Of a stretch of 64,000 bases of DNA, positions 53,576-62,021 are shown piece after piece. The stretch comes from Bacteroidota bacterium (GTDB lineage Bacteria > Bacteroidota > Bacteroidia > Palsa-965), in contig JACQAM010000006.1 in NCBI GenBank assembly GCA_016194975.1, positions 124,001 to 188,000 on the forward strand. The letters are read 5' to 3'. The position numbers and the translations under genes were made by a program. Under the pieces are notes generated by a model. The model was not told the DNA's origin. It was given only the letters and a program-made list of their open reading frames with translations, and did no database searches. Position 1 is the stretch's first letter. Each line of letters begins with the position of its first letter.

Positions 53576-53640
53576 AAAAAACTGCATCACTTTTAAAAAC
53601 CAAATAACTCATAACCAATAACCAATAACCCATTACTCAT

Positions 53641-53648
53641 TACCTTTG
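53641..53648 (+). promoter_or_regulatory. -7 box, near-leaderless start of the YqgE gene
   Basis: TACCTTTG (exact) ends 4 nt before the ATG at 53653. Confidence 0.6.
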
Positions 53649-56208: not shown

Positions 56209-56724
56209 TTATTTTTCAGCAGACCATTTTCCGAGTTGCTTCAGCACTTTTTCTGCTTCTTCCATTTTCTGCGTTCCGAAAAGTATACGTTTATTATTTT
56301 TCATTACGAATTGAATTCCATTTTTGCCGGAAGTATTATAGCACCATCCCTGTTTACCGGCCCAGCGTATTCCCCATCCGCCAAATTCCATCAGCGGCCG
56401 ATATTCTCTGGTGTAAACATGCTGCACATTTTCCCAATCGATCTTTCTCTTCGAAAAAAGGAAAGGATAAAACGTGTAAGTGAAACCTGACGAATCCATT
56501 CCGGTATTCAGTCTGCACAAAAGGAACATGAGCGTCATCAATGCGACAACGGATTCGCCGATATACAAGACCACGTTTGGCGCGGGTTTATTTCCGAAAG
56601 GATGGCCGGCAATGACCTGCCAGTAAATTCCGAAAAGAAAAATTCCATTGGCAATGAGCATCAGCACCCAAAGCCAGATCTGTTTGAATCGCTGTGATTC
56701 AGAAAAACTTGAAGTGGTTTCCAT
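56209..56724 (-). CDS. Small membrane protein, PH-like domain, unknown function
   Basis: 171 residues with two N-terminal transmembrane helices (IWLWVLMLIANGIFLFGIYW, VVLYIGESVVALMTLMFLLC) and a cytoplasmic PH-like or DUF6141-like domain (FTYTFYPFLFSKRKIDWENVQHVYTREYRP, KNGIQFVMKNNKRILFGTQKMEEA). The ATG lies 21 nt downstream of a TATCTTTC box within the left copy of a 56-bp direct repeat. Function unknown. Confidence 0.7.
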   Translation of the reverse strand: METTSSFSESQRFKQIWLWVLMLIANGIFLFGIYWQVIAGHPFGNKPAPNVVLYIGESVVALMTLMFLLCRLNTGMDSSGFTYTFYPFLFSKRKIDWENVQHVYTREYRPLMEFGGWGIRWAGKQGWCYNTSGKNGIQFVMKNNKRILFGTQKMEEAEKVLKQLGKWSAEK

Positions 56725-56725
56725 T

Positions 56726-56781
56726 TTAAGCGGGTTTGTTTGCCCGAAAGATACAATTTTACCCGGGATGGAATTTTCTCA
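56726..56781. repeat. 56-bp direct repeat, left copy (carries promoter of the 56724 gene)
   Basis: Differs from 57252-57307 at two of 56 positions. It holds a cgggtttgtttgcccg hairpin and, on the minus strand, the -7 box TATCTTTC at 56746-56753. Its right end, ttttctca, equals the stop-codon region of the gene ending at 57305. Confidence 0.9.
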
Positions 56782-56948
56782 ATAAAATCCTTTGCGCATG
56801 TCGGTTTTGCCTGCGTAAAAAAAATAGGGTTGTGCGCTGGTGAGTGAAAGCATTTTTTATTTCAGCACACGGCGTAAATAATCAGCGCCCACTTCACGGT
56901 GAAAAACACCGAAGTTTTTCCAAATGAACAATAGCCCGCGACAGTCTG

Positions 56949-57242
56949 AAACCGAGGATCACACATCTCAAACCGAGGGTCACATATCTGAAACCGAGGA
57001 TCAGATGTCTCAAACCGAGGATCACATATCTGAAACCGAGGATCAGACATCTCATTCCGAGGATCACATATCTCAAACCGAAGATCAGATGTCTCAAACC
57101 GAGGATCACATATCTGAAACCGAGGATCAGACATCTCAAACCGAGGGTCACCTATCTCAAACCGAGGATCAGATGTCTCAAACCAAAGATCAGACATCTC
57201 AAACCGAGGATCACACATCTCAAACCGAGAGTCACATATCTT
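56949..57242. repeat. 21-bp tandem satellite, 14 units
   Basis: Fourteen complete 21-bp units beginning aaaccgaggatca follow each other without spacer (294 bp). The units differ mainly in the last ten bases. Types are A (cacatatct), B (cagatgtct), C (cagacatct) and D (cacacatct), in the order D A B A C A B A C A B C D A. Units 2-5 and 6-9 therefore form an 84-bp higher-order repeat. The core octamer of B (agatgtct) is the reverse complement of that of C (agacatct). Frames remain open on both strands because 21 is a multiple of three. Confidence 0.93.
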
Positions 57243-57251
57243 ATCCGATAA

Positions 57252-57307
57252 TTAAGCGGGTTTGTTTGCCCGCAAGATACAATTTTACCCGGGTTGGAAT
57301 TTTCTCA
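57252..57307. repeat. 56-bp direct repeat, right copy (ends in the stop codon of the GldN-like gene)
   Basis: Near-identical to 56726-56781. Here the -7 box is changed to TATCTTGC and the hairpin extends to gcggg/cccgc. The final bases include the TGA (minus strand) of the gene at 57305-58225. Confidence 0.9.
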
Positions 57308-58225
57308 CTTCGCGGATTCTCCCGTCCACATATCATTCTCCGTTTCAATCAATGAAATTTCAATACGCTCGGCTTCCAGTTCTGCTTTTGCACCGGTGGC
57401 GTAATCCGAAATTTTTCTATTGTAAATATTCGTCTCCTTGTAAATTTCGCTGGCAAAATGCCCGTAGTCGAGCAGGTCGGCAGAATTGTGAATATAGGTG
57501 GGGCCGTTCTGGATGAATAAAAATGTTTTGCTTTTCAATACCGGTTCCAGTTCGGAATAATTTATCCAGCATACATCCGTATCCTTATTCATTGCCGCAA
57601 GATGCATTACCGGGCAAATGCTGACGATCTTCGTTTCCGCGTGAGGGATCTTTCCACCGTACCAAACTATATCTTCCTTGATACGATAACCGGTAATGTG
57701 ATGGAGCGAATCGTACATTACATATTCCGGAAGTTTTCCCGCACATTGTTTCTGTAATTGATCATCGTCGTAGATCGTGATCTCCCCATTCTCAAAAGAA
57801 TTCTCGATGGTGCGATAAAAAGTATCATCTCCGAAAAGTGACATGCGATCATCGCGCGGGATCAAACGCCAGATCCTTTTGGTAATGAGCACCCCGTCTT
57901 TTTTGTCGGCATCTTTTTTCCCGGAAACAAAAATTACGGAGTCAGGAACTCCCATTTTGTAATTCACCTTTGCACGCACTTTTCCTTTTTTATCATACAT
58001 CGTCCATTCGCCATCGCGCAAACTCCATTTGAATGAACCGGTAGATTTAGTTGTTCCGTCGGAGTAATAAGAAACATAATCGCCGAAGAGTTCTCCGCGC
58101 TTGGTCTGGTAAGTCACAGAAATGTTATCGTCCTTATAGGAATGATCGATGATGGGTGTAATGAAAAAAGCTACAGGAACCAGCAGCAGCGGCAGCAACA
58201 GAATTTTTTTCGGGAGAAGTTTCAT
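57305..58225 (-). CDS. MORN-repeat protein with C-terminal GldN-like domain
   Basis: 306 residues. After a signal peptide or anchor (LLPLLLVPVAFFITPI), residues about 35-110 hold MORN/YwqK strands (YYSDGTTKSTGSFKWSLRDGEWTMYDKKGKVRAKVNY). Residues about 115-300 follow the GldN/PorN pattern: RIWRLI, FENGEITIYD, GYRIKEDIVW, IVSICPVM, WINYSELEPVL, FASEIYKETNIYNRKISDYATG, then E.ERI..S....END.W. GldN is a periplasmic ring component of the type IX system. This copy is not next to gldKLM, so it is an orphan, fused form. Function is inferred. Confidence 0.68.
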   Translation of the reverse strand: MKLLPKKILLLPLLLVPVAFFITPIIDHSYKDDNISVTYQTKRGELFGDYVSYYSDGTTKSTGSFKWSLRDGEWTMYDKKGKVRAKVNYKMGVPDSVIFVSGKKDADKKDGVLITKRIWRLIPRDDRMSLFGDDTFYRTIENSFENGEITIYDDDQLQKQCAGKLPEYVMYDSLHHITGYRIKEDIVWYGGKIPHAETKIVSICPVMHLAAMNKDTDVCWINYSELEPVLKSKTFLFIQNGPTYIHNSADLLDYGHFASEIYKETNIYNRKISDYATGAKAELEAERIEISLIETENDMWTGESAK

Positions 58226-60658: not shown

Positions 60659-61933
60659 ATGAATGTGCTTCTGCAGAATGTAACAATAATAGATCCGTCG
60701 TCACCGCACCATGATACGAGAACAGATATTCTCATTGAGAATGGTAACATCCGCCAGATCGGAAAATATATTTCTCCCGAAGGAATAACACTGGTTAAAG
60801 GAAATGATCTGTATGCAGCGCCTGGTTTCATGGATCTTCACGCACACCTGCGCGATCCCGGATTTGAATACAAGGAGTCGCTCGAATCGGGAGCAGCAGC
60901 AGCAGCAGCCGGCGGATTCACAGCCGTACTCGCCATGCCCGATACTTTTCCCGTGGTGCAAACAAAATCTTCTGTTGAATATATTCTGAAACGTTCGCAG
61001 ATTTTACCAATAGAAATAGTTCCTTCCGGCGCTATCTCGCAGGACCTTGATGGAAAAGAAATGGCGGAGTTGTACGACATGCATCTTGCAGGAGCGAAAG
61101 CTTTTACTGACGGTGAACATCCCGTTTCCAATTCAGGATTACTCGTGCGCGTACTCATGTATGCGAATAATTTCGGCGGAAAAATTCATGTGCGCTGCGA
61201 CGACCGCACTATTTCTCATGGCGGACAAATGCACGAGGGGCCAATGAGCACCACACTCGGGCTGAAAGGAATTCCTTCACTAAGCGAAGAACTGATGATT
61301 GCGCGGAATATTTATCTCGCAGAATATGCAGGATCGCCCATTCATTTTATGGCGGTGAGTACTGCGAGAAGTGTTGAACAGATACGCTCGGCGAAAAAAG
61401 TAGGATTGAATGTTACTGCATCGGTCAATGCTGCCAATCTTTTCTGGACTGATGAAATGCTTTCCGATTTCAATACAAATTTCAAAGTGGATCCTCCATT
61501 GCGTTCGGAAGAAGATCGTCTTGCATTGCTCGAAGGGATCATTGACGGAACGATCGACTGCATCACCTCGGGCCACGCGCCGGAAGATGTGGAATCGAAA
61601 GTGGTGGAATTCGATCTCGCTGCTTTCGGAATGACGGCTCTTGAATCGGCATTCTCTGTTGCGAACAGCAGCGGAAAATTAAAACCTGCTCATCTCGTAC
61701 GCGCACTCTCACTCGCGCCACGCATGATAACAGGAATGGAAATTCCGAAAATAAAAGTCGGAGAAAAAGCAAACCTTACCGTCTTCGATCCGACAATGAA
61801 ATGGACCTTCACGGAAAAAGATAATAAGAGCCGATCGAAAAATACTCCGCTCCCTGGAAAAGAACTCACCGGAAAAGTGGTTGGAATATTCTGTAAAGGA
61901 AAATGGATAATGCATAATGAAATAATGAAATAA
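60659..61933 (+). CDS. Dihydroorotase-like protein with lost active-site residues
   Basis: 424 residues with the full class I dihydroorotase fold: metal-motif DLHAHLRDPGFEY (His61, His63), KAFTDGEHPVSN, GGQMHEGPMSTTLGLKGIP. However the position of the third metal-binding His (HCED motif) is Arg179 (VRCDD), the next His (HVST motif) is Ala232 (MAVST), and the catalytic Asp of the TDHAP motif is Gly305 (SGHAP). Activity is thus not expected. Inactive dihydroorotases in other bacteria support assembly of aspartate carbamoyltransferase. It is cotranscribed with the BatA gene. Usual annotation pyrC would be misleading. Confidence 0.85.
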   Translation: MNVLLQNVTIIDPSSPHHDTRTDILIENGNIRQIGKYISPEGITLVKGNDLYAAPGFMDLHAHLRDPGFEYKESLESGAAAAAAGGFTAVLAMPDTFPVVQTKSSVEYILKRSQILPIEIVPSGAISQDLDGKEMAELYDMHLAGAKAFTDGEHPVSNSGLLVRVLMYANNFGGKIHVRCDDRTISHGGQMHEGPMSTTLGLKGIPSLSEELMIARNIYLAEYAGSPIHFMAVSTARSVEQIRSAKKVGLNVTASVNAANLFWTDEMLSDFNTNFKVDPPLRSEEDRLALLEGIIDGTIDCITSGHAPEDVESKVVEFDLAAFGMTALESAFSVANSSGKLKPAHLVRALSLAPRMITGMEIPKIKVGEKANLTVFDPTMKWTFTEKDNKSRSKNTPLPGKELTGKVVGIFCKGKWIMHNEIMK

Positions 61934-62021
61934 TGTATAATGATTATTGCCACGAATAAGAGACAACCTTGCTATTATACATTCACCATTATACATCATC
62001 CATTATTTCATTATGCATTAT
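61907..62021. repeat. Perfect 21-bp inverted repeat between convergent genes
   Basis: ataatgcataatgaaataat plus g (61907-61927) is complementary to 62001-62021. A second inner pair, such as aatgtataat and attatacatt, lies inside. The left arm runs over the end of the dihydroorotase-like gene and the right arm abuts the stop codon of the transglutaminase gene, so it likely ends both transcripts. Confidence 0.85.

Follow-up and report, generated by a model that had tools for sequence, protein, structure and literature searches.

What is a tandem array of 21-bp units doing between two genes of a Bacteroidota bacterium, and how did it come to be there? The array lies in a 64,000-nucleotide stretch of DNA, analysed as a whole and called the window here, where it separates two minus-strand genes. 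The reading that we favour, with a probability of roughly 0.68, is that of a passive, non-coding intergenic minisatellite which grew by slippage or unequal exchange and was copied to a second site.

TRF placed the array at 56945-57241 (no strand assigned; consensus TCTCAAACCGAGGATCACATA), with a period of 21 over 14.1 copies (score 398) and also a period of 84 over 3.5 copies (score 496, 91% match). This agrees with the original prediction of 14 head-to-tail units without spacer, whose limits (56949-57242) were off by 1-4 bases; the same arrangement, lacking unique spacers, rules out a CRISPR array. Identity at a lag of 21 is 0.83 in the array, compared with a mean of 0.27 for the window and 0.35 for the next-best 276-bp stretch, and the repeat is therefore far beyond chance within the window. 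To the left the array is bordered by unique sequence, while its right neighbour resembles a decayed unit (TCTTATCCGATAA, 57239..57251, no strand assigned), at which the array appears to fade into unique DNA.

The units are not interchangeable. Their types run D A B A C A B A C A B C D A, as predicted, with type A covering several variants (AA or TT at positions 6-7, GA, GG or AG at positions 13-14, and CCTA). On average, 1.90 positions differ between units that are four apart, versus 3.16 ± 0.36 after shuffling of the unit order (P = 0.0005; 0.003 after correction over lags), so that, as in higher-order satellites, units at a distance of k = 4 are more alike than neighbours. The 84-bp higher-order period is thus borne out. 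It is mostly confined to units 3-11, with a core of two successive B-A-C-A blocks (units 3-6 and 7-10; 56987..57154, no strand assigned) visible in both the unit list and the lag-4 similarity. Such a pattern is what unequal exchange or slippage would give, which supports the proposal that the higher order arose by block duplication.

The genome (4.10 Mb in 28 contigs), of Bacteroidota type to judge by its GldN-like, BatA and GS-III genes, holds one further locus of the same family. This is an array of 20 full units on contig 24 (L004:8517-8936), with tatA on one side and a glnA of the GS-III type on the other, both named from reading the proteins rather than from a family search. Variable positions common to both arrays are 4, 6-7, 13-14, 18 and 20-21; four unit variants are identical between them, and they match exactly over at most 40 bp. 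Units differ as much between the arrays (3.36) as within them (3.27; P = 0.2), and no similarity was found between the flanks of the two arrays. Because the flanks are unlike and between-array differences equal those within arrays, either a piece of the array was copied without its flanks or the two loci are still exchanging sequence. The second locus also bears on the accuracy of the assembly. Tandem arrays are described as a known cause of mis-assembly (PMC6868369), and copy number or block order could in principle be wrong here; we consider this extremely improbable, as the array comprises 297 bp of diverged, distinguishable units with unique flanks within a 217-kb contig and a related array of different order was assembled at another locus.

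A pseudogene fragment on the minus strand of contig 24 (L004:9051-9281), ending ...YTYALVVDGQVVDSKRMAKTQ, resembles the C-terminus of other proteins encoded in the genome. The fragment, about 290 bp from the contig 24 array, matches the satellite unit at 18 of 21 bases and could possibly represent its seed, but one other match of 18/21 exists in 880 kb and the similarity is therefore near chance.

The family has a narrow distribution. It is absent from 11 other genomes of the host's taxonomic family, and about 394-395 genomes of the class gave two weak matches only, both rejected: one to a 7-bp ATATCTC microsatellite and one a short chance match in an apparent coding region. A 29-copy ATATCTC heptamer array lies at L058:1442-1640 in a distant relative of the same class (genome G016). 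An exact-pattern search of GTDB contigs, which may leave out records very near the window, gave no match to the unit, and Rfam had no match to the array. A phage or plasmid origin was rejected since searches of phages, plasmids and viral contigs also returned no match. No second strain of the host species was found; glnA proteins of the same genus are 81-86% identical.

Might the array encode a protein? The original prediction took it to be non-coding and named a translated heptapeptide-repeat protein as the finding that would speak against it. A plus-strand frame of 143 aa with SQTEDHI heptads and an ATG in register runs through the array (56924..57355), minus-strand frames would give CDPRFEI or YVILGLR repeats, and each of the two arrays has several open frames. 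Open frames are, however, expected, because a stop-free 21-bp unit keeps the frame open throughout. Substitutions in the 143-aa frame comprise 63 nonsynonymous and 2 synonymous codon differences; nonsynonymous differences dominate all six frames and are spread over codon positions, with no frame constrained. Moreover, the equivalent frame of the contig 24 array meets a TGA five codons upstream and lacks any start beyond the array itself, and no Pfam family scored above cut-off. A heptapeptide-repeat protein is accordingly highly improbable; we judge the 143-aa frame spurious, and the non-coding status of the array stands.

Evidence for a role in the nucleic acid itself was sought in the B and C units, whose core octamers (AGATGTCT and AGACATCT) are indeed reverse complements, as had been claimed. 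Inversion is not needed as their source because the ending of C (GACA) differs from that of D (CACA) by a single base. The predicted B/C hairpins found no support: RNA and DNA folds of the array are no better than those of dinucleotide shuffles (z = -0.56, +1.32 and +0.34) and the contig 24 array folds worse (z = +3.9), so the complementarity of the octamers makes no unusual hairpin. A protein-binding core fared no better. The 14 distinct substitutions in 34 units spare 9 of 21 positions, compared with 9.7 under random placement, the spread across the unit is as expected at random (P = 0.87), and the proposed core is intact in just 16/34 units. The suggestion that a 21-bp unit spans two helical turns holds as arithmetic, but as arithmetic alone, and 21 is equally 3 × 7 in a genome rich in repeats with periods that are multiples of seven (7n).

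These results weigh on a regulatory or architectural reading, in which a protein would bind every unit on one helix face and act on the promoters of the glnA gene and of the 171-aa gene beside the window array. In both arrays the distance to the gene start downstream is 144-220 bp, with the gene in the same relative orientation (n = 2), unit variants are common to the two loci, and a 21-bp period occurs in two unrelated families of this genome. Set against this are the absence of a conserved core, the lack of a copy in other genomes of the family even though glnA is present in 10/11 of them, and the absence of the array from the relatives searched. We regard such a role as unlikely. Overall, the array most likely has no function: it can be explained without one, and no function was detected.

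Two genes flank the window array. On one side is a gene for a GldN/MORN-like protein of 306 aa (57305..58225, minus strand; PF19841, E = 8.6e-27), which is too diverged for comparison of the orthologous array site. On the other is a gene for a membrane-type hypothetical protein of 171 aa (56209..56724, minus strand), with its start 220 bp from the array and no homologue found in the genus. A 56-bp direct repeat, its two copies 54/56 identical, brackets the array together with a neighbouring 163 bp: copy 1 (56726..56781, minus strand) immediately precedes the 171-aa gene, and copy 2 (57252..57307, minus strand) includes a GC-rich stem-loop as well as the GldN-like stop codon. Since no further copy was found in the genome, the repeat is probably a local duplication made as the intervening DNA arrived. 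Given that one copy holds the GldN-like stop and the other just precedes the 171-aa gene, only one copy probably stood between the two genes originally.

From its sequence, the 163 bp beside the array reads as the junction of an IS66-type element (remnant at 56779..56944, minus strand), truncated at one end by the array and at the other by the 56-bp repeat. It would comprise the final part of the gene that precedes tnpB (about 56857-56943, minus strand; terminating in ...VFHREVGADYLRRVLK and a stop) and the first 23 codons of tnpB (56785-56853, minus strand; start MLSLTSAQPYFFYAGKTDMRKGF), whose frame stops at 56779. The two pieces are 12/23 and 10/16 identical to an IS66 element of a family relative with the same junction; being short, they are not called by Pfam/NCBIfam profile searches. 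This setting raises the alternative that a mobile element (MITE or IS) carries the minisatellite within it, in the manner of BrickBuilt, a minisatellite-in-MITE of Porphyromonas gingivalis with a 23-nt unit (PMC4596501). The proximity of the IS66 remnant, the bracketing direct repeats and the presence of the family at two loci would fit. We nevertheless hold carriage by an element to be very unlikely: the two arrays share no flanks, terminal inverted repeats were not found, neither the 56-bp repeat nor the IS66 remnant DNA was found elsewhere in the genome, and the genome has no intact IS66 tnpB. BrickBuilt resembles the arrays in being intergenic, in Bacteroidota, at several loci and built of tandem units of about 20 bp with variable sites, whereas its leader and tail segments and IS5-type terminal inverted repeats were not seen at the arrays here.

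The array is not the only repeat of its kind in this genome. A second, unrelated 21-bp family is present at three loci, with near-palindromic GGCATAATTATGCC stretches: 12 units of two alternating types with an 84-bp higher order on contig 3 (L067:15939-16187), a piece at the apparent broken 5' end of a gene (contig 6:208749-208870) and a piece beside heptamer-like repeats (contig 1:84338-84390). Contig 3 also carries a pure heptamer array of about 19 TGAGAAC/TGAGAGA units (L098:15338-15471), and since this too has a higher order, of 42 bp, block duplication of this kind is general in this genome. In 880 kb, 74/175 tandem repeats have a period that is a multiple of 7, compared with 3/35 in dinucleotide-shuffled sequence; over the 1.28 Mb of stretches of the 4.10-Mb genome that the repeat statistics cover, the figure is 99/241 (about 41%). 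One genome of the same family is also 7n-rich (10/17 tandem repeats) and other relatives are less so. Descent of the 21-bp unit itself from heptamers is only weakly suggested, by a lag-7 identity of 0.36-0.37 in the array against 0.27 expected (P = 0.05 for the consensus). It is conceivable that several unrelated 21-bp families, with a two-turn unit, higher order and inter-locus exchange, exist because a length of exactly 21 bp is preferred by some process of replication or recombination or by an architectural protein, although we think this quite unlikely.

Intergenic heptanucleotide direct repeats are established in bacteria, including TAACTGA repeats (MacGregor 2015, PMC4679880) and GGGAATC and GGGGA(C/T)T repeats (Rehm 2015, PMC4692102). 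They have been described in Bacteroidetes, where close relatives lack the arrays (PMC4679880, PMC4692102); among long simple repeats, heptamers are reported to form the most frequent class in the majority of genomes surveyed (Mrazek 2007, as cited in PMC4679880), and PMC4679880 contains the proposal that polymerase-linked slippage causes them. The array is best read, by analogy, as akin to these repeats: it is non-coding and intergenic in a host with a genome-wide 7n-period excess, and both are lineage-specific, degenerate tandem arrays at many loci. It differs in having a unit of 21 bp rather than 7, with an 84-bp higher order, and in its motif, which is unrelated to the TAACTGA and G-rich heptamers (TAACTGA is absent from the listed units).

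In eukaryotic DNA of the alpha-satellite type, variant monomers form multi-monomer blocks that recur along the array, an arrangement attributed to unequal exchange. The array in the window shares variant monomers in repeated multi-unit blocks but is far smaller, bacterial and without a centromeric or known binding role.

For the origin of the array as a passive minisatellite, a short seed sequence would probably have arisen in heptamer-rich, pseudogene-rich intergenic DNA. Slipped-strand replication or unequal exchange would have multiplied it in units of 21 bp, and point mutations would then have produced a handful of unit variants. Later duplication of four-unit blocks would have created the 84-bp higher order; growth is evident from the pattern, while the enzyme-level route is our inference. 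A stretch of the array may have been copied between the window locus and the glnA-tatA region, without flanks, by recombination or template switching. This account is supported by the lag-4 order, the second array, the unrelated second family, the 7n excess, the decayed edge units and the IS66-remnant setting, together with the lack of frame constraint, conserved core and fold and the absence from the relatives searched. Three observations sit less easily with it: the heptamer ancestry of this unit is weak, the downstream gene has the same relative orientation at both arrays (n = 2), and the three longest short-unit arrays observed all have a unit of exactly 21 bp, which neutrality alone leaves unexplained.

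The locus offers a clean, small bacterial case of satellite behaviour mostly discussed for eukaryotes, with blocks of higher order, decayed edges and a single pool of variants common to two loci. It is useful for the study of how bacterial satellites grow and spread, and implies no function. With its second 21-bp family and 7n repeats, the genome could be used to test why multiples of 7 nt dominate intergenic repeats in some bacteria.

The genome-wide 7n excess is also visible elsewhere in the window, as short intergenic 7/14-bp repeats of the AACCAAT, AATGAAT and ATTTACG types (53598-53644, 61902-62006 and 1575-1659). The repeats at 61902-62006 look like an inverted pair.
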